From assembly GCF_019966495.1 (NCBI RefSeq), contig NZ_JAIMIA010000031.1, positions 1 through 46,092 of the forward strand: a stretch of 46,092 bases of DNA. Reading direction: 5' to 3'. Made by a program: the position numbers and the translations under genes. This DNA is from Tateyamaria pelophila. GTDB taxonomy: Bacteria > Pseudomonadota > Alphaproteobacteria > Rhodobacterales > Rhodobacteraceae. The notes under the pieces were generated by a model. The model did no database searches and was not told the origin of the DNA. It saw nothing but the letters and a program-made list of their open reading frames with translations. Each line of letters starts with the position of its first letter. Position 1 is the stretch's first letter. This document shows positions 1,020 through 46,092 of this stretch, piece by piece.

Positions 1020-1599
1020 CCTCGGCCATGTTCATCGGCACCTCGTGGCGCAGCCAGCTTTCCCAAAGCAGCACATCGCCCACCGACGGACGCGCATAGT
1101 GGAACTGTCGCAAATCCTCGGGTGCGTCTGCAAGCCGACCGGGTGACGCCATCATCATCGGCAAGCGTGGGTCTTCGAGCTTGAGCGCAGAAGTGCCTTC
1201 GGGCATCGCCACATAGGTCGTGCCGGAGATCACCGAGTGGGGGTGGATGTGCCCGGTGTGGATGCCGCCTTCTGGCAGGATGTTGATCCAGATGCTATCC
1301 AGTTTGAGTTTCTTGTCGCCCAGATCAAAGGCAAGATCACGGGCAAAGGCCGCGACATGGGCATCCAGAGCCTTGACCAGATCGGCAAAGATCGGGAACC
1401 GCCAGGGCAGATCGTCCAGTGACGCATAGGAGGTGTATCCGGGATAGCCCTCCCGCTCGCACCAGTTATGGCCCGCCTCGTCATCTTCGGCGATACCGTA
1501 ACAGTTTGTGGTCAGTTCTGCCGGGTCAACCGCAGGGGCGAACTCAGACAACGGGGCATGATAGAGACGGGTCGCGAAGAGAGAAGTGATGTGTGGCAT
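979..1599 (-). CDS. Putative 2OG-Fe(II) oxygenase family protein (TIGR02466-like)
   Basis: The 206-aa protein matches my memory of the TIGR02466-type putative 2-oxoglutarate/Fe(II) oxygenases. It has an N-terminal LFATRLYHAPL segment and a jelly-roll metal site HIHPHSVISGTTYV around residues 117-130. A distal His lies in RHEVPMN (His185), and Arg196 in ERVSVSFNYGWE is the expected 2-oxoglutarate ligand. The substrate is unknown; related folds hydroxylate peptides or small molecules in the cytoplasm. Its 3' end overlaps the hemerythrin start by 41 nt, suggesting coupled translation. The start was chosen at the first Met giving the typical MPHITSLF opening. Confidence 0.8.
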   Translation of the reverse strand: MPHITSLFATRLYHAPLSEFAPAVDPAELTTNCYGIAEDDEAGHNWCEREGYPGYTSYASLDDLPWRFPIFADLVKALDAHVAAFARDLAFDLGDKKLKLDSIWINILPEGGIHTGHIHPHSVISGTTYVAMPEGTSALKLEDPRLPMMMASPGRLADAPEDLRQFHYARPSVGDVLLWESWLRHEVPMNMAEDERVSVSFNYGWE

Positions 1600-1659
1600 G
1601 GAACTTTGTTAACTCAGCATGAAACGAAAGGCGATCAGGTTTCAGTGCAGATATCACAT

Positions 1660-2217
1660 CTATTCAAATTCCAACCCAATTGACGCCATCAGATGATAAT
1701 AGGCAAAAAGGGCCGCAAGGAAAAAGGCAAAGAGTATCAGTTCGTGCTTGAAATGGTTTGAGTGGAAGAAATCACGTTCGCGGTGGTGCAAGACGTCCAT
1801 CAGCTCGTCCGCAAACCGGATCGACAGGAACGTGCCAATCCCCGACAGGACAATGATCGCCCAATACGGCACCGGGTTGGTCAGAATGACAAGGAACGCG
1901 CGCGTCAACAGTGTGGTGTCATAGGCTTCGGGCCAAAAAAGCAGAGCGGCCGAATTGACGGACAGCGCCACGGCCCAGACCACGATTTCAGACACCACCA
2001 TGCGGATTCCGAACAGCAGGCGCAGCGGGAAATCCAAGAGGAAGCCGGCATCGGCCACCGGTGTGCAAAGCACGAAAAAGCTCCACGTCAGCCCCGCAAC
2101 GATCCCGCTGGTTGCGAGATCATACTGATAGTTGAGATATGCGAAATAACCGACAAGAACGCCCAACAAGAGGGTAAATTTCACGATCACTTGCCGCTGC
2201 GGATGTACTGCCACCAT
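1660..2217 (-). CDS. Multi-pass membrane protein of unknown function
   Basis: A 185-aa protein with about five or six hydrophobic helices: near residues 12-33, a long hydrophobic block about 40-95, 100-135, and a final helix near 155-180. The loop before the last helix is rich in charged residues (ADELMDVLHHRERDFFHSNHFKHE), leaving several His residues that could be cytoplasmic or metal-facing. The ATG at 2217 is preferred over the upstream TTG because AAGGA sits 5 nt before it. I do not recognise the family. It ends 60 nt before the oxygenase-hemerythrin pair and could be in the same minus-strand unit, within the block that separates rpmC from the upstream ribosomal genes. Confidence 0.7.
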   Translation of the reverse strand: MVAVHPQRQVIVKFTLLLGVLVGYFAYLNYQYDLATSGIVAGLTWSFFVLCTPVADAGFLLDFPLRLLFGIRMVVSEIVVWAVALSVNSAALLFWPEAYDTTLLTRAFLVILTNPVPYWAIIVLSGIGTFLSIRFADELMDVLHHRERDFFHSNHFKHELILFAFFLAALFAYYHLMASIGLEFE

Positions 2218-2314
2218 GCCCGTCCTTTGCAAGATGTGTGGGAGTGATGTACTCCTTGTAAATCAATGCGTCCAGCGATTGCGCGCGCATTATGAAACGC
2301 TTGGTATTTAAGGG

Positions 2315-2343
2315 TTGCCATAACCCAGTACCCCCCATATACG
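2315..2343 (+). promoter_or_regulatory. Sigma70-type promoter for the rpmC-rpsQ block
   Basis: TTGCCA (2315-2320) and TATACG (2338-2343) are separated by exactly 17 nt, about 90 nt before the rpmC start. It lies in the otherwise empty stretch 2218-2431. A new promoter is needed here because the block before rpmC is on the opposite strand. No experimental support. Confidence 0.55.
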
Positions 2344-2431
2344 GCGCACTTCACCACCCACTCCACGGGAATCAGGGTGACCCGGCGCAATTCGCCAAGG
2401 GCCCTCTCGTGATGTTGAAAGGAATAGGCGC

Positions 2432-2632
2432 ATGAACGCCCAAGAACTTCGGGATAAGACCCCGGACCAGCTTCGTGATGAACTGGCAAACCTGAAAAAA
2501 GAAGCCTTCAACCTGCGTTTCCAGCAGGCCACTGGCCAGCTTGAGAACCCTGCGCGTTTGCGCGGTGCCCGTCGTGATGCAGCCCGCGTCAAGACGATCC
2601 TCAACGAACAAGCCGCAAAAGCTGCAGAATAA
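2432..2632 (+). CDS. rpmC: 50S ribosomal protein L29 (uL29)
   Basis: The 66-aa product begins [18 protein letters not shown] and contains the L29 hallmark [20 protein letters not shown] around residues 21-40, forming the two-helix hairpin that sits near the polypeptide exit tunnel. Length is normal. AAAGGA lies 9 nt upstream of the ATG. It opens the visible ribosomal block, with rpsQ 12 nt downstream. In the canonical S10 operon rplP directly precedes rpmC; here an accessory block replaces it, so this gene is now first in its transcription unit. Confidence 0.97.
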
Positions 2633-2644
2633 GGAAATCACGAT

Positions 2645-2875
2645 ATGCCCAAGCGTATTCTGACCGGCACCGTGACATCCGATGCCAACGCCCAGACAGT
2701 TACCGTTTCCGTAGAGCGCCGCTTTACGCACCCGGTTCTGAAAAAGACCATTCGTAAGTCCAAGAAATACCGGGCGCACGATGAGAAGAATGTTTTCAAA
2801 GTAGGGGATTCTGTTCGCATCATCGAATGCGCCCCCAAGTCGAAGACAAAACGTTGGGAAGTGCTGGAGGCCTGA
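2645..2875 (+). CDS. rpsQ: 30S ribosomal protein S17 (uS17)
   Basis: The 76-aa OB-fold protein begins [19 protein letters not shown] and contains the family core [20 protein letters not shown] followed by YRAHDEKN. S17 binds 16S rRNA early in 30S assembly. Length and start are typical, and it follows rpmC by 12 nt. A 78-nt gap to rplN contains no clear terminator, so the operon probably continues. Confidence 0.97.
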
Positions 2876-2953
2876 AGCCCCCGGCATTTGCCACATTAAT
2901 CGAAACCCTGGGGATCAGGCACGCATCGCCCCCCAAAGGTCGGGAGAAACCAT

Positions 2954-3322
2954 ATGATCCAGATGCAAACCAACCTGGATGTAGCTGACAACAGCGGCGC
3001 ACGCCGTGTTCAGTGCATCAAGGTGCTGGGTGGTTCCAAGCGTAAATACGCATCCGTCGGCGACGTCATTGTCGTGTCGGTAAAGGAAGCCATTCCGCGC
3101 GGCCGTGTGAAAAAAGGGGACGTCCGCAAGGCCGTCGTCGTCCGCACCGCCAAGGAAGTTCGTCGTGACGATGGCACAGCCATCCGTTTTGATCGCAACG
3201 CCGCCGTTATCCTGAACAACAACAATGAGCCTGTCGGTACACGTATCTTTGGCCCGGTTGTTCGCGAGTTGCGTGGCAAGAACTTCATGAAAATCATCTC
3301 GCTGGCTCCGGAGGTGCTCTGA
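2954..3322 (+). CDS. rplN: 50S ribosomal protein L14 (uL14)
   Basis: The 122-aa protein begins [20 protein letters not shown], the near-universal L14 opening, and ends with the conserved [12 protein letters not shown]14 lies at the 50S subunit interface and contacts L19 and 16S rRNA. Its TGA shares one base with the rplX ATG (TGATG at 3320-3324), so translation of the two is coupled. First gene of the spc-type order. Confidence 0.98.
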
Positions 3323-3627
3323 TGGCTGCGAAACTCAAAAAAGGCGACAAGGTCGTCATGCTTGCGGGCAAGGACAAGGGCCGCGAGGGAACAATTTCCT
3401 CGATCGATCCCAAGGCGAACAAGGCTGTTGTTGACGGTCTGAACATCTCGATCCGTGCCACACGTCAAAGCCAGACGACACAAGGCGGCCGCATCCCCAA
3501 GGCGATGCCGGTAGATTTGTCGAACCTGGCACTGCTGGACGCGAATGGCAAAGCCACCCGCGTTGGTTTCAAGATGGATGGCGACAAGAAAGTCCGCTTT
3601 GCCAAGACAACAGGGGACGTGATCTGA
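3322..3627 (+). CDS. rplX: 50S ribosomal protein L24 (uL24)
   Basis: The 101-aa protein starts [20 protein letters not shown], the KOW motif that nucleates 50S assembly. It continues with the usual [20 protein letters not shown] and a C-terminal [20 protein letters not shown] segment. Both ends overlap neighbours by one base (TGATG with rplN and rplE), indicating translational coupling. Confidence 0.98.
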
Positions 3628-4190
3628 TGCTCGACACAGCAAACTATACACCCCGCCTCAAGGCAGCGTATCGCGATACGATCCGCGCTGCGATGAAAGA
3701 GGAATTCGGCTACAAAAACGACATGCAGATCCCGCGTCTGGACAAGATTGTCCTGAACATCGGATGTGGTGCTGAAGCCGTCCGTGACAGCAAGAAAGCC
3801 AAATCCGCTCAGGAAGACCTGACCGCGATTGCAGGCCAGAAGGCGCTGACCACAGTGGCCAAGAAATCCATCGCGGGTTTCCGGGTCCGTGAGGACATGC
3901 CTTTGGGTGCCAAGGTGACTTTGCGCGGCGACCGGATGTACGAATTCCTGGACCGCCTGATCACGATCGCGATGCCGCGTATCCGTGACTTCCGCGGCAT
4001 CCCCGGCAAATCGTTTGATGGCCGTGGCAACTATGCCATGGGTATGAAAGAGCACATCGTTTTCCCTGAAATCGACTTTGATAAAGTCGATGAGACCTGG
4101 GGAATGGATATCGTGATCACCACGACAGCAGACAATGATGCCGAAGCAAAAGCCTTGCTCAAGCATTTCAACATGCCCTTCAACTCGTAA
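3627..4190 (+). CDS. rplE: 50S ribosomal protein L5 (uL5)
   Basis: The 187-aa protein carries the L5 signatures [18 protein letters not shown], then [19 protein letters not shown], and the C-terminal [21 protein letters not shown]5 binds 5S rRNA and P-site tRNA in the central protuberance. The start overlaps the rplX stop by one base. rpsN follows after 17 nt with a GAGGAAAA ribosome-binding site. Confidence 0.98.
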
Positions 4191-4207
4191 GCGCAGAGGA
4201 AAAAGAT

Positions 4208-4513
4208 ATGGCTAAAAAATCCATGATCGCGCGCGAAGTGAAGCGCGAAAAGCTGGTCAAGAAGTACGCCGCCAAGCGCGCCGAACTCAAAGCAATCATC
4301 AGCGATGAAACCAAGCCGATGGAAGACCGTTTCCGCGCTTCGCTGAAGCTGGCGAAACTGCCGCGCAACAGCTCGGCCGTGCGTCTTCACAATCGTTGCC
4401 AACTGACGGGTCGTCCGCATGCGTATTACCGCAAGCTGAAGATCAGCCGGATCGCGCTGCGGGAGCTTGGCTCTGCGGGCCAGATCCCTGGCCTCGTCAA
4501 GTCAAGCTGGTAA
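4208..4513 (+). CDS. rpsN: 30S ribosomal protein S14 (uS14), zinc-independent long form
   Basis: The 101-aa protein lacks the CxxC...CxxC zinc ribbon of short S14. It has the long C-minus form usual in proteobacteria, with [20 protein letters not shown] then [19 protein letters not shown] and the terminal GLVKSSW. It is required for 30S head assembly. It sits between rplE and rpsH, with rpsH starting 13 nt downstream behind a GGGAGAGAGAG sequence. Confidence 0.98.
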
Positions 4514-4526
4514 GGGAGAGAGAGAT

Positions 4527-4919
4527 ATGAACGATCCTATCGCCGATATGCTCACCCGGATCCGCAACAGCCAGATGCGCGGTAAATCCGTGGTCTCGAC
4601 CCCCGCGTCGAAACTGCGTGTGCGCGTCCTCGAAGTGCTTGCGGACGAAGGCTACATTCGTGGTTTCGAAGAAACCAAAGGTGAAGATGGCCACCCCGCT
4701 ATCGAAATCAGCCTGAAATATTACGAAGGCGAACCTGTCATTCGCGAGTTGAAGCGGGTCTCAAAACCCGGTCGTCGCGTCTACATGGGCGTCAATGACA
4801 TCCCATCGGTCCGTCAGGGCCTGGGTGTGTCGATTGTCTCCACCTCAAAAGGTGTGATGTCGGATGCAAGTGCACGCAGCCAGAATATTGGCGGCGAAGT
4901 GCTCTGCACGATCTTCTAA
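4527..4919 (+). CDS. rpsH: 30S ribosomal protein S8 (uS8)
   Basis: The true start is ATG 4527 ([20 protein letters not shown]), preceded by a strong GGGAGAGAGAGAT site. An in-frame extension back to 4467 overlaps rpsN and is spurious. The 130-aa length is normal. The C-terminal signature [20 protein letters not shown] is intact. S8 binds 16S helix 21 and in E. coli autoregulates the spc operon; I did not find an obvious S8-site mimic near rplE here. Confidence 0.97.
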
Positions 4920-4929
4920 GGAGCAGCAG

Positions 4930-5463
4930 ATGTCTCGTATTGGTAAGAAACCGGTCGACCTGCCTTCGGGTGTTTCGGCATCCGTCTCTGGTCAGATGAT
5001 CGAAGTCAAAGGCTCCAAAGGCACACGGTCGTTCAAGGCGACCGACGATGTGACGCTCAAAGTCGAAGACAACGCCGTCACCATCACCCCGCGCGGGTCG
5101 TCCAAGCGGGCGCGCCAGCAATGGGGCATGTCCCGCACGATGGTCGCCAATCTGGTGACCGGCGTGACGGATGGGTTCAAGAAAGAGCTTGAAATCCAGG
5201 GTGTTGGTTACCGGGCGTCGATGCAGGGGAACTCCCTGCGTCTGAACCTGGGCCTGTCGCATGACGTTGACTATGTGCCACCTGCCGGTGTCACAGTCAC
5301 AGCCCCCAAGCAGACCGAAGTGATCGTCGAGGGTATCGATGAGCAATTGGTCGGCCAGGTTGCCGCAAACATTCGTGAATGGCGCAAGCCCGAGCCCTAC
5401 AAAGGCAAAGGCATCCGCTACAAGGGCGAATTTATCTTCCGCAAGGAAGGCAAGAAGAAGTAA
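4930..5463 (+). CDS. rplF: 50S ribosomal protein L6 (uL6)
   Basis: The 177-aa protein begins [20 protein letters not shown] and contains [20 protein letters not shown] and the C-terminal [20 protein letters not shown], all L6 hallmarks. An open frame upstream to 4864 overlaps rpsH and is not used; AAGGAG lies just before ATG 4930. L6 sits near the factor-binding site of the 50S subunit. Confidence 0.97.
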
Positions 5464-5474
5464 GGACCAGACAA

Positions 5475-5834
5475 ATGGCAAACAGCAAACGGACCCTGTT
5501 CCTCAAGCGCCGCCTGCGCGTCCGGAACAAACTTCGCAAGGTCAATGCAGGGCGTCCGCGCCTGAGCGTTCACCGTTCGAACAAGAACATCAGCGTGCAG
5601 CTGATCGACGACGTGCAAGGTGTGACCCTGGCCGCTGCCTCGACCCTCGAAAAGGATCTTGGCGTTGTGGGCAAGAACAACATCGAAGCAGCGACCAAGG
5701 TCGGTGCGGCGATCGCAGAGCGCGCGAAGAAGGCCGGCGTGGACGTTGCGTACTTCGACCGTGGCGGCTTCCTCTTTCACGGAAAGGTCAAGGCCCTTGC
5801 CGACGCCGCCCGTGAAGGTGGCCTGAAAATCTAA
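5475..5834 (+). CDS. rplR: 50S ribosomal protein L18 (uL18)
   Basis: The 119-aa protein begins [20 protein letters not shown] and contains [20 protein letters not shown] and the C-terminal [20 protein letters not shown] and REGGLKI, the L18 fold that binds 5S rRNA with L5. AAGGA lies 8 nt upstream of ATG 5475, so the longer frame starting at 5379 inside rplF is rejected. A GC-rich hairpin follows before rpsE. Confidence 0.97.
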
Positions 5835-5841
5835 GACCTGC

Positions 5842-5861
5842 GGAGGGCGGCGACGCCCTCC
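5842..5861 (+). promoter_or_regulatory. Intercistronic hairpin between rplR and rpsE
   Basis: A perfect 7-bp stem, GGAGGGC (5842-5848) with GCCCTCC (5855-5861) around GGCGAC, lies 7 nt after the rplR stop in a 101-nt gap. No T tract follows, so it is more likely an mRNA-stability or attenuation element than a full terminator. Confidence 0.5.
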
Positions 5862-5935
5862 CGATGATCCGGGGGCAACAGGCTCACCTGGATTGAGATA
5901 AACTGGCGCAAGCCACCTGAATAAAGGATGTTCTC

Positions 5936-6520
5936 ATGGCAGAACGTGATAATAACCGTCGCGGCCCCCGTCGCGACCGCGACGAGTCACCGGAATTTTC
6001 GGATCGCCTGGTCGCGATCAACCGTGTGTCCAAAACAGTAAAAGGTGGTAAGCGCTTTGGTTTCGCCGCCCTTGTTGTCGTAGGCGACCAAAAAGGCCGC
6101 GTTGGTTTCGGTAAAGGTAAGGCGAAAGAGGTCCCCGAGGCTATTCGCAAAGCCACCGAGCAAGCCAAGCGCCAGATGATCCGCGTCCAGTTGCGCGAAG
6201 GCCGGACATTGCACCACGATATGGAAGGCCGCCACGGCGCCGGGAAAGTCGTGATGCGGACAGCCCCTGAAGGTACCGGTATCATCGCCGGTGGTCCGAT
6301 GCGTGCCGTGTTCGAAATGCTGGGCGTGAAAGACGTTGTGTCCAAGTCGATCGGTTCGCAAAACCCCTACAACATGATTCGCGCAACCATGGACGGCCTC
6401 CGCAAAGAGCAGTCGCCCCGTGGTGTCGCGCAACGTCGTGGCAAGAAAGTGTCCGACATTCTGCCCAAGCGTGACGAAGCACCTGCTGCCGACGCGGCAC
6501 CTGTGGCTGAGGAGGCCTGA
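5936..6520 (+). CDS. rpsE: 30S ribosomal protein S5 (uS5)
   Basis: The 194-aa protein has an N-terminal basic/acidic tail ([18 protein letters not shown]), the S5 double-stranded RNA-binding-like domain [19 protein letters not shown], and the conserved [20 protein letters not shown] in the C-terminal domain. The Ala/Glu-rich C-terminal tail (about residues 175-194) is an alphaproteobacterial-style extension. S5 helps decoding fidelity. A 101-nt leader with a hairpin separates it from rplR; the AAAGGA ribosome-binding site lies upstream of ATG 5936. Confidence 0.97.
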
Positions 6521-6525
6521 GACAG

Positions 6526-6714
6526 ATGGCAAAAACAATCGTTATAAAACAAATCGGTTCCCCCATCCGCCGTCCCGCGAAGCAGCGCGCGACTTTGATT
6601 GGTCTGGGTCTGAACAAGATGCACAAAACCCGTGAGCTGGAAGACACACCTTCCGTGCGTGGCATGGTCAATTCGATCCCACACATGGTCGAGATCATCG
6701 AAGAAAAAGGCTGA
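6526..6714 (+). CDS. rpmD: 50S ribosomal protein L30 (uL30)
   Basis: The 62-aa protein begins [20 protein letters not shown] and ends [16 protein letters not shown], with the family signature [20 protein letters not shown]. It follows rpsE by 5 nt. It is the last gene of this block because a strong intrinsic terminator lies 38 nt downstream, whereas rplO normally follows directly in the spc operon. Confidence 0.97.
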
Positions 6715-6752
6715 CGTCTGGCAGATTGAAATCCGCCTTACGACCTTGATTG

Positions 6753-6788
6753 AACGCCTCGCGGGAGACTGCGGGGCGTTTCTTTTTG
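6753..6788 (+). terminator. Rho-independent terminator after rpmD
   Basis: A 10-bp stem pairs 6753-6762 with 6771-6780 (one T-G pair, loop GGGAGACT), followed directly by a T-rich tract TTTCTTTTT. This is textbook geometry and ends the rpmC-rpmD unit. It also lies at the 3' side of the convergent VWA gene. Confidence 0.9.
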
Positions 6789-6826
6789 ACGTCGCAGACC
6801 GGTCGTTTCCCCAGAAGCTCATCGCG

Positions 6827-7576
6827 TCAGGTGAAAGCTGCGCGTTCTGGTTCAGTGTTGTCCCGACTGATCAGTGCACAACCCAGAGTGACTCGCAACG
6901 CATCGGCCAGTTCATCCACCGTTTCCGCGGAGACATAGAGCCCACCGGTGCGATCCGCGAGGCACTTGGCCACGGTGTTACCCGCGCCAACATCCTGCTG
7001 TTCGGGATTGTCCCAGCTGAAAAAGTCGAAAACCACTTTGAACCCGATCACATGAACAGTCAGGTCAGCGGCTTCTGACGCCAGTTCGGCCCCCAAGGCG
7101 CAGGGCCGTCCTCCACATGTCTCGTTCCCATCCGTGACCAAAACGACAATTCCGGGGCGCACCTTGTAATCCAGCGCTTGGGTCGCGGCACGCACCGCAG
7201 CCGTCAGCGGCGTCAGCCCTTTGGGGTGCAATCTGTCGATATCCGAAATGATTGCAGCGGCTGCATCGTCGCGTGGTCCAAACCGCAAATTGATATTATC
7301 GCAGGCGGCCCTTGTTCCCGGTCCATAGGTCAATAGCCCGACCCGCCGGAAGGGCGTGATGTCGGGGATTGCATCCCGGACGGCCTCGCGTGCCTCAACG
7401 ATCCGGGTCTTGCGTTGGAGGTCGAAGGTCAGCTCGGCCATCGAGGCGGAACCGTCAAAAACGAGCATTGCATCTTTGGCGCAGCCCGCAGCGCCTTCGG
7501 ACGTCAGAGAGGTCAGTGGCAGGACCAGAGCCGCCAGACTTACGGCGCACAGCAAGGGTATGTGATTGGCATTCAT
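6827..7576 (-). CDS. Secreted VWA-domain protein
   Basis: Starting at ATG 7576 the product is 249 aa with a signal peptide (MNANHIPLLCAVSLAALVLP, cleavage probably near residue 30). A von Willebrand factor A domain follows. The metal-ion-dependent adhesion site is visible as DGSAS (Asp41-x-Ser43-x-Ser45), a Thr in KGLTPLTAAV and VLVTDGNETCGG. Four or more Cys residues suggest periplasmic disulfides. VWA proteins bind partners through Mg2+; the partner here is unknown. The open frame extending to 7681 is rejected because it removes the signal peptide from the N-terminus. It lies in the accessory block between rpmD and rplO and diverges from the DsbA-like gene. Confidence 0.8.
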   Translation of the reverse strand: MNANHIPLLCAVSLAALVLPLTSLTSEGAAGCAKDAMLVFDGSASMAELTFDLQRKTRIVEAREAVRDAIPDITPFRRVGLLTYGPGTRAACDNINLRFGPRDDAAAAIISDIDRLHPKGLTPLTAAVRAATQALDYKVRPGIVVLVTDGNETCGGRPCALGAELASEAADLTVHVIGFKVVFDFFSWDNPEQQDVGAGNTVAKCLADRTGGLYVSAETVDELADALRVTLGCALISRDNTEPERAAFT

Positions 7577-7665
7577 GGGGACACCCTGACACCGGCGTTG
7601 GGACCAGATCAATGACCCGGTGTATTTTCTTTGCTCTGTCTGCAATGGCCCCGTAGCGTGGTCCC

Positions 7666-8310
7666 ATGACCGAACTGACATATTATTATTCCGCCCATTC
7701 AGCCTTCGCCTATCTCGGCTCTGCCCGTGTGATGGAGATCTGCCGGGCCCACGATCTCACGCTGGTGCATCGCCCGATCCCGTTGTCACCGGTGGTCGAA
7801 GCGCAGGGCAGTCTGCCGTTTCGCGCGCGCACGCAGGCTCATGTTGACTACTTCTTTGGGCGAGAGATCGAACGCTGGGCCGCATACCGTGACGTCCCGG
7901 TCGTCCAGTTTCGCCCAACCTATCACGATGCGGATTACACTCTGGCCAGCGGCATGATCCTTGCCCTTGGGGATCGCGGGCCTGCTGTCGATGCGATGGC
8001 CCATGCTCTGCTTGAAGCGCATTGGCGCGATGATGCGGACCTGTCGGATATCGCAACCTTGTCGAGCATAGCTGTGCGGCTTGGTCATGATGACGCAACT
8101 CTCCTGACGCAGGCCCAAGCGCCTGAGGTCGTTGAGCGTTACGCGCAGAATGCCCAAGCGGCTTTGACTGCAAATGTGTTCGGCTCGCCGACCTATGTGC
8201 TGGAGGGGGAGATGTTCTATGGGCAGGATCGCCTGGAACTCTTGGAACGCGCCATTGCCGTTCCCTTTGCCCCGACCCGTTGGCGTAACCCGCCGGTGAA
8301 CGCACGTTAG
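7666..8310 (+). CDS. DsbA/GST-kappa-fold protein, 2-hydroxychromene-2-carboxylate isomerase-like
   Basis: The 214-aa protein opens MTELTYYYSAHSAFAYLGSA, in which the S-x-x-S-x-x-A-Y-L pattern replaces a DsbA CxxC and matches the glutathione-binding serine motif of HCCA isomerases and kappa-class GSTs. The C-terminal cis-Pro region TANVFGSPTYVLEGEMFYGQ and the following DRLELLERAI helix are typical. Probably a cytosolic GSH-dependent isomerase or transferase; the naphthalene-type substrate of characterised members should not be assumed. It starts 90 nt from the divergent VWA gene in the block that interrupts the ribosomal cluster. Confidence 0.8.
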   Translation: MTELTYYYSAHSAFAYLGSARVMEICRAHDLTLVHRPIPLSPVVEAQGSLPFRARTQAHVDYFFGREIERWAAYRDVPVVQFRPTYHDADYTLASGMILALGDRGPAVDAMAHALLEAHWRDDADLSDIATLSSIAVRLGHDDATLLTQAQAPEVVERYAQNAQAALTANVFGSPTYVLEGEMFYGQDRLELLERAIAVPFAPTRWRNPPVNAR

Positions 8311-34009: not shown

Positions 34010-34086
34010 GGACCGATAGCTCAGCTGGATAGAGTACCTGACTACGAATCAGGGGGTCGGGGGTTCGAATCCTCCTCGGTCCGCCA
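34010..34086 (+). tRNA. tRNA-Arg (anticodon ACG), CCA encoded
   Basis: The acceptor stem is GGACCGA/TCGGTCC, the anticodon stem CCTGA/TCAGG has loop CTACGAA, and the T arm has GTTCGAAT. All four arms fold, and CCA is at 34084-34086. ACG is read as Arg CGN after A34 deamination. The accessory DNA starts directly after it, making this the probable integration site. Confidence 0.96.
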
Positions 34087-34747: not shown

Positions 34748-34823
34748 GCCGCTGTAGCTCAGCTGGTAGAGCACGTCATTCGTAATGATGGGGTCGGGGG
34801 TCCGAGTCCCTTCAGCGGCACCA
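34748..34823 (+). tRNA. tRNA-Thr (anticodon CGT), possibly impaired
   Basis: The acceptor GCCGCTG/CAGCGGC is perfect, the D arm folds, the anticodon stem CGTCA/TGATG has loop TTCGTAA (anticodon CGT, Thr ACG), and CCA is encoded. The T loop reads TCCGAGT instead of TTCGANT, so the near-universal T55 is C, and two T-stem pairs are G-T. It could be functional, a mobile-element copy, or an early pseudogene. Confidence 0.8.
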
Positions 34824-36326: not shown

Positions 36327-37052
36327 CTACGTTCCTTTTCGCTGACTTGCGAAAGTCCATGCGGCAGTCCAGCCAGCGATCCAACCGCCTAAGTGAGCTT
36401 CCCAAGCAAGGGTCCCGGATAGCGCGACGAAAAGCACCAAATTGACGAGAGCCACGCCTAAGATGCCACCAAGGACAGGTCGCACGGATTGGTTCAATTT
36501 CCGTCGCTGTCTAAAGTCCCAAGCTTGCCACACGCCCAGTAGGCCAAAAACGGCTCCTGACGCTCCAATCATTGGGCCGTTCGCAGTTGACAACAACCCG
36601 AAAGCTACGGCACCAGAAATCGCTGATAGGGCCAATAAAAAAGTGGTTTTGCCGACGCCAAGGTATGTTGCAACTCCTTTTCCCAAGGCGAGAAGGACCA
36701 CGCTATTCATGACAAAATGCACAGCACCGCCATGCAAAAACGCGTGCGTCATAAACATCAGAACTTTCTGACTTGAATAGAGCGGAGCGAGGCTGTCATC
36801 GAGCAAAGGATGCCAGAATGCGCCATATAAAAAGACGTTCATACGCCAACTATTAGAACCGATCCAACCTGAATCTGACAGCGTAAGTGGCAGTTCAATC
36901 GCCGCCATAACGCCAATCAGTACCCAAAGAAATACGGGCGCACCGGGTTCAACTTTTTTGGGGTGCGCGCCGCCAAGCTGCGCGACAGCACCGCGTGTTT
37001 GGAAGACGTGGATTACACATTCCCCAGGAAACTGGACCGAGCGCTGTTCCAA
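36327..37052 (-). CDS. Rhomboid-family serine protease, N-terminus replaced by IS21 sequence
   Basis: The frame encodes 241 aa. From about residue 31 (PKKVEPGAPVFLWVLIGVMA) it is a normal rhomboid core. HAFLHGGAVHFVMNS has the helix-2 His and Asn, MIGASGAVFGLLG the catalytic Ser in GxSG, and HLGGWIAGW the catalytic His. The first ~30 codons (37052 to about 36958) are antisense to istB of the adjoining IS21 remnant. The original start has therefore been cut away, and the current Met start is acquired from IS sequence. Whether the chimera is expressed is unknown. Rhomboids cleave membrane proteins within the bilayer. Confidence 0.7.
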   Translation of the reverse strand: MEQRSVQFPGECVIHVFQTRGAVAQLGGAHPKKVEPGAPVFLWVLIGVMAAIELPLTLSDSGWIGSNSWRMNVFLYGAFWHPLLDDSLAPLYSSQKVLMFMTHAFLHGGAVHFVMNSVVLLALGKGVATYLGVGKTTFLLALSAISGAVAFGLLSTANGPMIGASGAVFGLLGVWQAWDFRQRRKLNQSVRPVLGGILGVALVNLVLFVALSGTLAWEAHLGGWIAGWTAAWTFASQRKGT

Positions 37053-37550
37053 AGCCTGCGCGATAGCGTATGGATATCAAAGGCCCGCCCGATCCTCATC
37101 ACCGGCCCATGCGGCGTGGGGAAGTCGTGGTTGGCCTGTGCTTTGGGACATGGAGCCTGCCGTCAGGGCAAAACCGTGTTCTATTTCCGTATGCCACGTC
37201 TGCTGGCCGATCTGGCGGCCGCGCGCGGCGATGGCAGCTATGACCGGCTGTTTCGCAAGATCGCCCGCTCCGATGTGCTGCTCCTCGACGACTGGGGCCC
37301 CGAGCAGCTGACCGCCCCGCAACGCCGCGACTTGATGGAGGTCATCGACGAACGCTATGGCCGCAAGGCCACCATCGTCACCAGCCAACTGCCCGTCGAC
37401 ACTTGGCACGACATGATCGGCGACCCCACCTTCGCCGACGCCATCCTCGACCGCTTGGTTCATAACGCACACAAGTTCGCCCTCGATGGGCCATCAATGC
37501 GCAAACGCTCCAGCCAGATGCAAAAAACGGACGCTGGAGGTACGAAATGA
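36963..37550 (+). pseudogene. istB: istB, IS21 helper ATPase, 5'-truncated
   Basis: About 195 codons remain. LRDSTACLEDVDYTFPRKLD, Walker A ITGPCGVGKSWLACALG, Walker B VLLLDDWGPEQL, and TSQLPVDTWHDMIGDPTFAD with AILDRLVHNAHK are typical IstB. The N-terminal ~50 residues and start codon are absent because the reading frame begins at the rhomboid junction. Non-functional for transposition without istA. Confidence 0.88.
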
Positions 37551-40575: not shown

Positions 40576-42552
40576 TCACCGCTCCATCGCGGCCAATTCT
40601 TCTGCGGTGATCTCAGGCGGTGGAACAAGCCGCCATTTCCGCGACTTCTTGTCGATCTCCCAACCTCGCTTCCTCAGCGATGGCTTGAGTTGGTTCAATT
40701 CTCGACTGAGCGTCGCCGCCGTCATGGGCAACCGCGATGGGTGCAACCCAATGATCTCAGCCGACTGCTGCAACTCGATCAGCAGTTCTTGGGGCGTGCC
40801 CCAAAACTCGCCGCGCCGCGCCACAGGTTCTTGGAATGACTCCAATGCCTGCATGGTCGCAGAGTCATCCGCCGCTTCGTCCTGCGCAATGTCTTGAGCC
40901 TCGACCATCTTTTCGATGAACCACCCCTCATCCCTACCCATGACCCGCGCCGTCGCCTCGCCAATTGCACCAAACTCGGCCAACCGCACATTGTCCGCAA
41001 AAGCGTGGGCGTCGATTTGCGGTAACACCTTCAACACTTCCATGACGAGTGCGACCGCGCCGATGAACATACGTGGTGCAGATTCAGCAAGCTGCTGTTC
41101 GAACTCGGATTCGAGCATTCGTTTTTCGGGCTTCTCCAACTCAATCTCGACCATTCGCGAGATCAAATCGGCTGCGTATTTCGATGGATCAATGCCGTTG
41201 ACGATCACGGGGCGTCTCACCCAAATCGAAAATAGGTCGCCATTGGTGAACAACTGCCGCACCTCAAAACCCATGCCCGTGGTGATGCCGCAAAGCGTGT
41301 CCGACAGCTTGGTCAGGTCAGACATGTTTTCGAGTGTCAGCACATAATTGTGCCAAGCCCGCACAAGCACATCGTCCACTTTGTCGCTACCCGGTGCGAC
41401 CATGGCAGACACAGGGTCAATCAAAGTCCGCAGCACCCGTGTCGTCGATGTTTTGGCCGACCCATATTCACCAATCAGGTTGACGATGGGCGAAGGGGTG
41501 TCGGGAAAGAACATTTTGACGGCACAGGCCATGAAGACGATGAATTGGTCATTGTCCATGTTGACCATTGCGCGGATGTCTTCGAGCGATCCTGACCCAT
41601 CCCCCAACTCGATTGGCAATTGGCGAGAGCGGCGGAACACAACAGGGCACTCTTCGTCACCGTCAATCAACTCAACACCGTCGGCCGAGATAATCAGCAC
41701 GCGGTCATCTGCATCGCAAAGATCGACGTAGATGCGGTTGTCTTGCCGTGCGACCCGTAGATGCACGTCTTCAACCGTCTCATAGGCGTGTGCCCGCGCT
41801 ATGCCCACGACGAGGTTGATCTGCTCTTGGCTTGCAGTCACGCCGCTTGAATAGGCCGTGCGACGCAACCAATCTGCGAACTCGATCGAGTCGATCCGCA
41901 TGATGCGGCGTGGACCCACGCGCGCATAAGCTGTGCCGTCAGGATCGCGGAACAGTTTGAGTGATCCAACCACGTCGTCGAGGATCAACTTGGTCTGATC
42001 CCCTTTGTTACCAATCTGCACACCATCAGGAAGACCGCCCGCGTAATCGCCCGCCCGTGCATATGCCCAAAACGGTTCGGGACCACATTTGCCTGCCTTG
42101 GAGATGTCTGCCCATTTACTTCGCACGTCGCTTTCAGATTCAAAGCCATCCGTTTGCTTCGAGTAGGTCAACCAATGCTCATACCCATCTTCGCCGAACG
42201 CGCCGAAAATGTTGAACCCCGCATCGCTCCACGATTTGTAACCACCACCTGGCCGCGCCTTCGTGAAAGCCCGCAACGCCGCATCCACATCGACCGCTTT
42301 CGTTCGCTGACCGCTCTTTGGGCCTGTCTTGCGAGGCTTTGCCTTTCGCAAAACAATCTCGCCGCCCTCGTCGAACTGCATTGCGCCCGTTTCGTCAATT
42401 TCTGTGGGCGTGAGGACGATGCTTTCGAGTGCAAGAGGCAATGCCACCACAGGGCGTTTCGCCGCGATCTCTTGAGCCGTCTTGTCGCCACGCAGCGCTT
42501 CGAGCGCTACCGTAGCTTTAAACTTGTCAGAAAAACTGCGTCTCTTGGTCAT
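40576..42552 (-). CDS. PriCT-domain primase/helicase-type ATPase fused to an IS3 orfA N-terminus
   Basis: A 658-codon frame. Residues 1-32 (MTKRRSFSDKFKATVALEAL, RGDKTAQEIAAK) are the start of an IS3-family OrfA. From about residue 33 the sequence changes. A PriCT-like module (about 88-172, GYKSWSDAGFNIFGAFGEDG, W...WADISKAGKCG) is followed by a P-loop ATPase with Walker A GEYGSAKTS (361-369) and a Walker B-like VLTLENMSDLTKLSD, then NGIDPSKYAADLISRMVEIE. This is the mobile-element replicative ATPase family. Its own N-terminus (probably primase) is missing. The join is in frame, so a chimera could be made from IS expression signals. Confidence 0.75.
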   Translation of the reverse strand: MTKRRSFSDKFKATVALEALRGDKTAQEIAAKRPVVALPLALESIVLTPTEIDETGAMQFDEGGEIVLRKAKPRKTGPKSGQRTKAVDVDAALRAFTKARPGGGYKSWSDAGFNIFGAFGEDGYEHWLTYSKQTDGFESESDVRSKWADISKAGKCGPEPFWAYARAGDYAGGLPDGVQIGNKGDQTKLILDDVVGSLKLFRDPDGTAYARVGPRRIMRIDSIEFADWLRRTAYSSGVTASQEQINLVVGIARAHAYETVEDVHLRVARQDNRIYVDLCDADDRVLIISADGVELIDGDEECPVVFRRSRQLPIELGDGSGSLEDIRAMVNMDNDQFIVFMACAVKMFFPDTPSPIVNLIGEYGSAKTSTTRVLRTLIDPVSAMVAPGSDKVDDVLVRAWHNYVLTLENMSDLTKLSDTLCGITTGMGFEVRQLFTNGDLFSIWVRRPVIVNGIDPSKYAADLISRMVEIELEKPEKRMLESEFEQQLAESAPRMFIGAVALVMEVLKVLPQIDAHAFADNVRLAEFGAIGEATARVMGRDEGWFIEKMVEAQDIAQDEAADDSATMQALESFQEPVARRGEFWGTPQELLIELQQSAEIIGLHPSRLPMTAATLSRELNQLKPSLRKRGWEIDKKSRKWRLVPPPEITAEELAAMER

Positions 42553-42800: not shown

Positions 42801-45800
42801 TTAGCCCAATTGGGGCCGAGTGAGGTCAAGGACAACAATATCGACCCTTCCTTCTTGCGCGGCCCGGCTGGTCGATAACAGCGCACTAGACAGCTCACCT
42901 GCATTGGTCGGTCTCTGAACACTATCCGGCAGCCGGGCCATGTTTACGCTATCTCCGAACCACAGAACGAGATAGATACCGCGTTCGGCCCGCCAATCGT
43001 TAACATAAAGATGGTCAAGCTGAGCGTCGGATGCAGTCCAGAGGTCTCGGTGCCACTGTCCTTTTATCTCTATTGGAAGGATCAATCTTTCATCTGCTCG
43101 AACAACGACATCGACCCGCTTGTCATCAGCGCCGTGACTTTCTGGGATGTATTCAAGCCCGGTGTCCATAGTTCGCAGCATCTTAACAAGTTCGTCGCGG
43201 CAGGACTCCTCATCCTTGTGTGGCCCCATCCTGTACAGAAACGGACCCTTACTTCCCTTACGGTATCTCTCAGGGATGTAGAAACCGCGGTACCAATCGA
43301 CATCGCTGTTTTTCAACATCGATTGAACGACAGTCAGGTGTTCTAACATTGCCGCTTGTAAGTCGGGCGATGTTCTGGGTCGGTTGTCAGATACAACCGA
43401 GACAATTTCATTCACCGTCGGCGGCGTGTAAGCGTGCTCTATTCTTCTTCGCTGTTGTTCTGCGGAAACACTCTGAAGGTGGTAAGTATAGCCATCTGCG
43501 TCCATGTCTCTAAGACTTTGCATTGCAGCAATCGCTGCGTCGGAATGATCGTTACCCAAGCGCGAGATCAGGCCGTTTAGATAGTCAGATGCATCCCACG
43601 CGTTCGTGTCGCCTCTGGTCATACTTGTCGGCCTGTTCGCCAGCGGCCAAACGTCGCGAAATGTAGCTACAATCCATCGGTGCTGATCCGGGGTTAGATC
43701 AACAGCGGACCGTTCTTCGCGATCAGAGCCTGCGCTTCTTTTACGCAGGTGCCAAAACAGTTCTGGTTCAACGCTATTCTCAAAGCGAAGACAAGCCGTT
43801 TCAAAATCGAGGATGACCTGAACGGCATCCCAATTTCGCCGCCGTTCGTCGTCCAGTTTCTGAGCTAGCCGCGCATTGCATATGTTAAGCAGTTCTGTGC
43901 GTCTTGGCGAAGCTAGGACTCTATCTACCAATTCGGTTTCTGTTTGATCTGACAAGTCCGAACAGGTTTCCAACCATTCGATTGCGAGCGTAGTTGCAAG
44001 TCCGATGTCCTCTTCGGACCTCATCAATTGGTAGAGCCGATCCACGTTGCTCTTTCGCTTTCTCAGCTGCGCAACAATGAAAAGACGGACGGCAGTTTCC
44101 CAGCCTCCCCTTGACCTGAGTTCAGCTTCCAAAGCTTCAACTAGGCCTGTCAGCCCAGCGTGTTCATCGATCATTGAGTGCCAAAGCTCGAACAGACCCG
44201 CCATCAGACGCTCGTCGGGCAGTTCCGCGAACGGCTCATCGCGCAATCGCAAGCGTTCAGCCAATGCCGCGACAATGATGTCTCCCGCGTGGTACTTGTA
44301 CCCTCTCGCGAAATTCAGTGCCATACGCACTGCGGTGGGCCTAGGGTTCTCTAAAGTCAGAAATGCTTCAAACCCCTCATGTGCAGCGGCAGCTAGTTCT
44401 GTTCCTAACCATTCCGCAGTTCTTTCGTGCGCGACAACATCATCCCCAAGGTCTGAGAAACGTTTTAGGTAGGCCATTGCAGCCGGATGAATCCAACGCA
44501 ATTCTCCAGCACGCATTTCTCCGATGTGCTCGGAAAACTCATTTCTGCCTCGCTCGAATCGTTCTCCTTGCTGTCTAGCGTGCTCTGCTACTCGCCTATC
44601 TTCTTGAATTTGCCACTTTGGGACAGCGGGGCTGGCAAGATTTGAAATACGAGTGCAGAGTTCGTGATCTTCGCCCGCCAACTGTATCGCCAACCGCCGA
44701 GTGTCTTCGCCTCGATCTTCATCATGACCAACAAGCGTCACAAGGCCCATCAAGAGTTCACCAGATACCTCGTCGGGGGTGAGACTAGAAAGAATGAAGA
44801 TGATGTCGCTTTCATCCGGAACTAGCCCGGGATTCACCTCCCTGAGGTTTCTTTGTTGCCTCCAGAGCCGGTCCCCCGATCCTTCCAGAAGAACGCTTCG
44901 CTGAATTGAGCGTCTGACATCATCCATTGATCTAAGCTTTTCCGCGAGCACCTTTGAGTTTTGCCGATGCTGGGTGTTCCAGTCTTCAGCCGATTTCAGC
45001 CACGCCCAAAGTTTGGGCGCGCTTACATCCCCAGTTTCTAAACGCTGCAGGACAAGTGCATGAAGAGTATCAACTACATCATTGTATTCGAGATCGTAAT
45101 CTCGCGGGAGAAGCTCCGTGAGGTTCGCCGAAAGAATGTCGAGCAAAAAATTTAATCGATCTGGAGAGATCGACTCAGGCAACCTTAGAAATTTGGCTAC
45201 AAAGTTTGAGGTTTCTTCTTGTGGCCAAACGCAAATTGTGAGTCCGCCGAAAGCCAATAATACATCTACTACCTGCTGATCAGAAAATTGATCCAAACCG
45301 ACCTCACACATAACTTCATATGCAATTCGCACGGAGGATTGGTCGGCTTTACCAACAAGTTCTTCGATTTTGGCAGGCCAGTCCGAAAAATCTGTTTTTT
45401 CTAGAGCGGTTGCAGCATGTCGTCGTATCACGAACATGTCCTGCTCGTCAGTCAGCAGGATAAGAAGAGTCTCCCGGTATGAGTGCGCCAATTCCGCGTT
45501 GGCAAGTTGTTCGATAAGCAACAACCGCAACGCAGAGGGGGCCTTACTATCAAGCATGACTCTGTCCGCTTCATCCCTCATCGCCCCAGAGACAAGCGAA
45601 CTTGCCTTTGCGTTTCCTCCCCTCCAGAAGCTTGGATTACTGTGAGCCAATGCTTCGAGTGATCTGAAAAGTTCACCTGTTAGTTGCGGAGTGAGAGATT
45701 CCGCGTCCCCATATTCAAGAACACCCATAGGGTCTGCGGATACCACAGAACTTGCTAAATTGGGATCGCGAGCCAGCCGAGCATGAATCCCGCGTAAGTT

Positions 45801-46043
45801 GGTTGGAACTAGATCGTAGTCGTGAAACAATTTCAATAAACGTCGTCGCTTCATGGGCGTGTCAGCTTTTTCAGCAAGCCAATACGCACCAAGAAACTCA
45901 CCTATTCGACGGTGCCAATATGAAAAACTATCGTTTTCCCCAGAAAACAGCCGCGTTCCTATCGCCTGTGTCAGGGCAATCGCGTTTGGCATCATGCCTC
46001 TTACAGCCCATTGAGAACGCTGCATAAGAATGCCTCGTCCCAT
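42801..46043 (-). CDS. Large HEAT-repeat protein with C-terminal PD-(D/E)xK nuclease; C-terminal part of a NACHT/STAND-type defence protein
   Basis: A 1080-codon frame. Near the start, LFSGENDSFSYWHRRIGEFL-GAYWL (about 32-56) matches the segment that follows the NACHT ATPase in STAND proteins. LRGIHARLARDPNLASSVVS, then ADPMGVLEYGDAESL, and long alpha-helical HEAT-like repeats follow to about 900. The C-terminus is a restriction-endonuclease fold: RVDVVVR (Asp978), LPIEIKGQWHRDLW (Glu992, Lys994) and a helix with Gln1008, all catalytic positions kept. No Walker motifs are present. An in-frame TAA (46059-46061) lies 16 nt upstream of ATG 46043. Either the gene is split or frameshifted from its ATPase half beyond the window, or it now starts at ATG 46025 behind GACGAGG. 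AT-richer than core genes. Antiphage defence is inferred. Confidence 0.7.
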   Translation of the reverse strand: MGRGILMQRSQWAVRGMMPNAIALTQAIGTRLFSGENDSFSYWHRRIGEFLGAYWLAEKADTPMKRRRLLKLFHDYDLVPTNLRGIHARLARDPNLASSVVSADPMGVLEYGDAESLTPQLTGELFRSLEALAHSNPSFWRGGNAKASSLVSGAMRDEADRVMLDSKAPSALRLLLIEQLANAELAHSYRETLLILLTDEQDMFVIRRHAATALEKTDFSDWPAKIEELVGKADQSSVRIAYEVMCEVGLDQFSDQQVVDVLLAFGGLTICVWPQEETSNFVAKFLRLPESISPDRLNFLLDILSANLTELLPRDYDLEYNDVVDTLHALVLQRLETGDVSAPKLWAWLKSAEDWNTQHRQNSKVLAEKLRSMDDVRRSIQRSVLLEGSGDRLWRQQRNLREVNPGLVPDESDIIFILSSLTPDEVSGELLMGLVTLVGHDEDRGEDTRRLAIQLAGEDHELCTRISNLASPAVPKWQIQEDRRVAEHARQQGERFERGRNEFSEHIGEMRAGELRWIHPAAMAYLKRFSDLGDDVVAHERTAEWLGTELAAAAHEGFEAFLTLENPRPTAVRMALNFARGYKYHAGDIIVAALAERLRLRDEPFAELPDERLMAGLFELWHSMIDEHAGLTGLVEALEAELRSRGGWETAVRLFIVAQLRKRKSNVDRLYQLMRSEEDIGLATTLAIEWLETCSDLSDQTETELVDRVLASPRRTELLNICNARLAQKLDDERRRNWDAVQVILDFETACLRFENSVEPELFWHLRKRSAGSDREERSAVDLTPDQHRWIVATFRDVWPLANRPTSMTRGDTNAWDASDYLNGLISRLGNDHSDAAIAAMQSLRDMDADGYTYHLQSVSAEQQRRRIEHAYTPPTVNEIVSVVSDNRPRTSPDLQAAMLEHLTVVQSMLKNSDVDWYRGFYIPERYRKGSKGPFLYRMGPHKDEESCRDELVKMLRTMDTGLEYIPESHGADDKRVDVVVRADERLILPIEIKGQWHRDLWTASDAQLDHLYVNDWRAERGIYLVLWFGDSVNMARLPDSVQRPTNAGELSSALLSTSRAAQEGRVDIVVLDLTRPQLG

Positions 46044-46092
46044 CCAGCTCGCTTGAGTTTAATGCTGAGAGAGCCTTTGGATGTGTCGCGTC

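Follow-up and report, generated by a model that had tools for sequence, protein, structure and literature searches.

An eruA-like STAND gene of Tateyamaria pelophila, very probably split by an ISAs1-like insertion

An open reading frame with a helical region and a C-terminal nuclease

The window, by which we mean the whole stretch of 46,092 nucleotides analysed here, is contig C205 of the genome of Tateyamaria pelophila. Its last part is occupied by one minus-strand ORF (42801-46043, 1080 aa). The sole NCBIfam family matching this ORF is NF058535.1 (antiphage_EruA, described as "NACHT domain-containing antiphage protein EruA"), with 894.4 bits and E values from 1.6e-268 to 1.8e-268, over profile positions 265-1317 of 1318. 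The curated cut-off of this family is 1000 bits over the whole protein. Pfam gave nothing significant on the ORF, with HEAT_2 and DUF459 appearing below threshold only, and searching the PDB by sequence returned nothing at E ≤ 1. The PADLOC models matched neither the ORF nor the fragment of the gene found on a second contig (see below). The antiphage label of the family comes from NCBIfam alone, and the function is putative. The features of the locus are given in Table 1.

Table 1. Features of the interrupted eruA-like gene and of the adjoining insertion sequence (window coordinates; residues are those of the 1080-aa ORF, P0001).
Feature	Position	Strand	Basis
3' four-fifths of the interrupted eruA-like gene (residues 25-1080 and stop; helical region and nuclease)	42801..45971	-	NF058535 match; IS boundary at 45971/45972
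C-terminal PD-(D/E)xK nuclease domain (residues 917-1073)	42825..43295	-	Predicted fold and invariant residues
Gln1008 codon	43020..43022	-	Invariant in 63/63 selected rows of alignment A2
Glu992-Ile993-Lys994 (ExK) codons	43062..43070	-	E and K invariant in 63/63 selected rows of A2
Presumed catalytic Asp978 codon	43110..43112	-	Invariant in 63/63 selected rows of A2 (D103 there)
All-helical HEAT-like superhelix, presumed sensor (residues 45-912)	43308..45911	-	AlphaFold2 model, Foldseek
10-bp target-site duplication	45962..45971		Second copy at G000:C38:78-87
24 spurious N-terminal ORF codons, IS-derived, in a frame other than that of the transposase-like match	45972..46043	-	Repeat and frame comparison
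Right end of the ISAs1-like IS; the contig ends inside the element	45972..46092	-	121-bp repeat; transposase-like translation

The AlphaFold2 model of the eruA-like part (ma58b4100da70, mean pLDDT 88.1) has helices from residue 21 to residue 888 of the 1056 modelled. They form a continuous stack of antiparallel helices, as in a HEAT-repeat superhelix, and the best Foldseek matches of this region (7 with E ≤ 0.001) are CAND1 and karyopherins. The separate model of the nuclease (m46788d2f18bb) shows an alpha-beta-beta-beta-alpha-beta core in which D, ExK and Q are in register, which places the domain in the PD-(D/E)xK superfamily. Foldseek returned no match to this model at E ≤ 0.001, and the VIA-align list is headed by type II restriction enzymes. 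These results bear out much of an earlier, sequence-only reading of the locus, which had proposed a STAND-type defence gene with a post-NACHT helical region (compare the NF058535 match and the HEAT-like fold) and an intact C-terminal nuclease with a restriction-endonuclease fold. The fold was found by both the model and VIA-align, and the four residues singled out by that reading (Asp978, Glu992, Lys994, and Gln1008) are those invariant in Table 1.

Elsewhere in the window, a 658-aa ORF (40576-42552, minus strand) begins with about 30 residues similar to the start of IS3-type transposases (HTH_Tnp_1 at an E of only 0.12) and continues as a PriCT-2 primase-like part; it is perhaps another IS-truncated gene. 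A piece of an IstB/IS21 ATP-binding protein (36963-37550, plus strand, 195.7 bits) lies beyond the genes of tRNA-Arg and tRNA-Thr (34010-34086 and 34748-34823, plus strand), approximately where recognisable housekeeping genes stop.

The insertion sequence and the NACHT half on a second contig

The terminal 121 bp of the window are repeated in the genome: identical copies (100%) lie at the ends of C204, C139, C72, C46, and C6, a copy of 99% identity ends C245, and one of 69% lies inside C257. The exact copies all diverge at the identical base. The related element of C257 codes for a partial protein scoring above the cut-off of the ISAs1 transposase model NF033564 (94 bits for a cut-off of 70). 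The terminal bases of the window, translated on the minus strand, match 35 residues of this partial protein at 60% identity (E = 9.1e-7); the matching stretch contains two stop codons, TGA and TAA, and is in another frame than the ORF. Only the last 121 bp of the element lie in the window, and its assignment to the ISAs1 family is tentative; a 10-bp duplication is present. The opposite (left) end is found at nine contig ends, including the first 77 bases of contig C38, and its inverted repeat matches that of the right end imperfectly (18/22). The IS is therefore multicopy, with its right end at seven contig ends and its left end at nine; we did not find its body in the assembly. Because the window closes with 121 bases of an IS end, the first 24 residues of the ORF do not belong to eruA and the gene is decapitated; eruA-like sequence starts at 45971.

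The ten bases ACACAGGCGA adjoin both IS ends, in the window and on C38. We controlled for chance by comparing the ten-base flanks of the seven right ends with those of the nine left ends. Among these 7 x 9 flank pairs, this sequence is exact in the C205-C38 pair only. Three of the seven right ends each agree at 10/10 with a single left end (C205-C38, C72-C231, and C46-C248), and two more pair at 9/10 (C204 with the start of C46, and C245 with C215). The right ends of C139 and C6 have no left partner above 5/10 among the nine, and not every copy of the IS shows an exact duplication. When the right flanks were shuffled in 20,000 trials, a 10/10 pair of any kind arose at a frequency of 0.0004, and a pair of at least 9/10 at 0.00285.

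The sequence-only reading had pointed past position 46092 for a NACHT ATPase, and one was found on C38, beside the opposite IS end. At a lax limit, NF058535 matches the whole genome at 13 places, of which two are strong (C205 and C38) and 11 weak (best E of 0.012). The match on C38 (64-894) covers profile positions 1-277, with 281.5 bits and an E of 5.5e-83. At the same lax limit, all 14 control genomes match the profile, none of them over the cut-off, and none matches at 1e-30. The fragment on C38 carries GEPGMGKT and IIDALDE, which we take to be the Walker A and B motifs of a NACHT/STAND ATPase. Pfam profiles of NACHT (19.1 bits) and nSTAND3 (19.8 bits), as well as AAA, match this half below their cut-offs. 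Since each fragment scored apart misses the EruA cut-off, we call the gene eruA-like. Together, on their two contigs, they reach homology to the full profile (1-277 and 265-1317 of 1318). On this profile evidence, we regard the window gene as an interrupted eruA-like gene rather than an EruA equivalog.

Directly upstream of the NACHT half, C38 carries a Wadjet/MksBEF-like set of four genes (1567-7993, minus strand). Three of them encode a DUF3584 SMC-type ATPase (518 bits), an MksE-like protein, and a DUF7281 TOPRIM-like protein; the fourth, an ORF of 402 aa, has no match. This set has no homologue in the 86 relative loci at E ≤ 1e-6. Between it and the eruA-like 5' half lies a C-terminal dGTPase-like fragment (1134-1520, minus strand; HD_assoc 71.9 bits, PADLOC dGTPase 5.2e-25).

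Relatives of the gene and their distribution

We kept the best 80 of 439 relatives (L048-L127), most of them titled proteobacterial. In 66 of these best 80, a single frame of 1250 aa or longer contains the homology to the NACHT half, and the match to the window protein extends past its residue 1000. The other 14 include six that begin or end at or near a contig edge, five in which the pieces share a locus although the frame is broken or short, and three without the NACHT half. Most of the 80 relatives were not seen to start at the start point of the window ORF. In the relatives with a P-loop pattern in their first part, this pattern lies approximately 30-120 residues from the start of the frame and the nuclease is C-terminal. 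The closest relative by identity, L049, scores 1237.7 bits with NF058535, i.e., over the cut-off.

Across the class, 13 of 385 genomes match NF058535 at 1e-30, two of them over the cut-off, and six of 293 kin genomes match the window protein (both counts include the genome studied here). Relatives are held by 23 of 72,556 plasmid records, 13 of which are typed conjugative, and by a single one of 50,697 phage records.

Two of the genes without a NACHT half adjoin transposition genes. The one of L073 (9941-12412) directly follows an rve/HTH_21 transposase gene, while TniQ and TniB/TnsA-like genes precede the one of L075 (9806-12244); the two are cases of repeated decapitation beside transposons. 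In another genome (G503), an eruA-like gene is spread over the end of C181 and the start of C39, with profile positions 1-864 and 880-1318, and the contig end is not repeated within that genome. In 15 of 86 loci, a DUF4143 gene adjoins the eruA-like one, in most cases as its next downstream neighbour on the same strand (L051, L053, L057, L063, L072, L074, L076, L077, L080, L081, L085, L119, L122, L129, and L130, with L129 repeating L085). Two of the five DUF4143 genes scanned also carry AAA_14, and a relative on a Paracoccus plasmid likewise has DUF4143 annotated next to it. The DUF4143 gene is possibly a partner of the eruA-like gene.

Origin of the split gene and comparison with known systems

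We consider it highly probable that an ISAs1-like insertion split an eruA-like STAND gene between its NACHT part and its helical region, and that the uninterrupted gene encodes a single protein. The element would have jumped between the NACHT ATPase part and the helical region, duplicating 10 bp and leaving the 5' part (NACHT, Walker A and B) on C38 and the 3' part (superhelix and nuclease) in the window. The two contigs would then join physically as C38-IS-C205. The copy in the window is probably inactive, because the ATPase has been lost in cis.

One may ask whether the split gene still works, with the IS driving the helical-nuclease half, either alone or with a separate NACHT half. The 3' half is open and keeps D, ExK and Q, and a start codon is present inside the IS end. 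However, a recent insertion would also leave the frame open, and STAND effectors normally require their ATPase in cis, so we regard continued function as very unlikely. We find it highly improbable that the IS created a split system, in which the ATPase and the sensor-nuclease are two cooperating proteins, or an on/off switch of a costly defence gene in the population.

The halves could also come from two different eruA-like genes that were broken separately and met the same type of IS by chance or by IS recombination. The IS is indeed multicopy (seven right ends, nine left ends) and the contigs are unjoined in the assembly. Yet the genome holds just two strong NF058535 pieces, which are complementary, and the exact 10-bp duplication pairs these two flanks alone, which leaves two separate genes with a very faint chance. 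Finally, we practically set aside the reading of the ORF as a complete sensor-nuclease that naturally lacks NACHT and begins with the ATG at 46043. In its favour, the frame stays open down to 42801 with intact nuclease residues, and three of the 80 relatives (L073, L075, and L106) lack the NACHT half. Against it, the first 24 codons consist of repeat DNA common to six other contig ends, the NACHT half adjoins the matching IS end, 66 of the 80 relatives have NACHT in the same frame, and, of the three exceptions, L073 and L075 are themselves behind transposition genes and L106 is on a 3.5-kb contig.

The probable insertion into an eruA-like gene changes the status of the locus. The sequence-only reading took it for a complete and poorly described sensor-nuclease, and the candidate NACHT-less system becomes a fragment, or broken copy, of a family already named by NCBIfam, i.e., an ordinary defence gene apparently disrupted by an ISAs1-like element. 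It also considered a C-terminal nuclease behind a repeat sensor to be a less described order; the order is real, but NACHT, helices, and C-terminal nuclease are the usual layout of the EruA family. A contig that ends inside an IS can mimic a new domain architecture.

For the intact type, we propose a mechanism drawn from the NCBIfam name and from what holds for STAND proteins in general, with a cycle modelled on proteins such as bNACHT25. Its components, the NACHT motifs, the helices, and the nuclease, have the backing of sequence and predicted folds. The helical region would recognise a phage product, the ATP-bound NACHT would oligomerise after sensing, and the C-terminal nucleases, thereby brought together and activated, might cut phage or host DNA.

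EruA and the window gene with its C38 part are alike in layout: the NACHT motifs fall within the first ~277 positions, and the helical region and the C-terminal end (to position 1317 of 1318) come after them. They differ in the interruption of the latter by the ISAs1-like element, with fragments that are each under 1000 bits. The Avs (AVAST) STAND proteins resemble it in combining a STAND NTPase with a sensor of helical repeats; several of their types also have a nuclease effector. The characterised Avs carry their effector at the N-terminus. bNACHT25 and bNACHT32 share with the eruA-like gene a NACHT STAND protein and a PD-(D/E)XK effector. According to PMC12169576, neither of the two protects without this PD-(D/E)XK nuclease, and with bNACHT25 DNA is degraded. 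These proteins have the nuclease at the N-terminus and the sensor at the C-terminus, whereas the eruA-like type has NACHT at the N-terminus and the nuclease at the C-terminus; an effector N-terminal to NACHT did not occur among the eruA-like relatives with a P-loop pattern in the first part of the frame. The intact EruA type is of interest for this placement of its nuclease at the opposite end from the effectors of bNACHT25/32. How a NACHT core is linked in function to a C-terminal nuclease across almost 900 residues of helices can be tested.

Our search of the literature library returned no paper on an antiphage EruA; the one match to the name concerns an unrelated E. coli regulator. The string 'Eru' occurs 0 times in the main text of the DefensePredictor paper (PMC13092281). 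PMC7159879 contains passages on REase and NACHT domains. A second, longer related family is present in seven loci (L040-L046), with frames of approximately 1440-1480 aa that score only 109-162 bits with NF058535.
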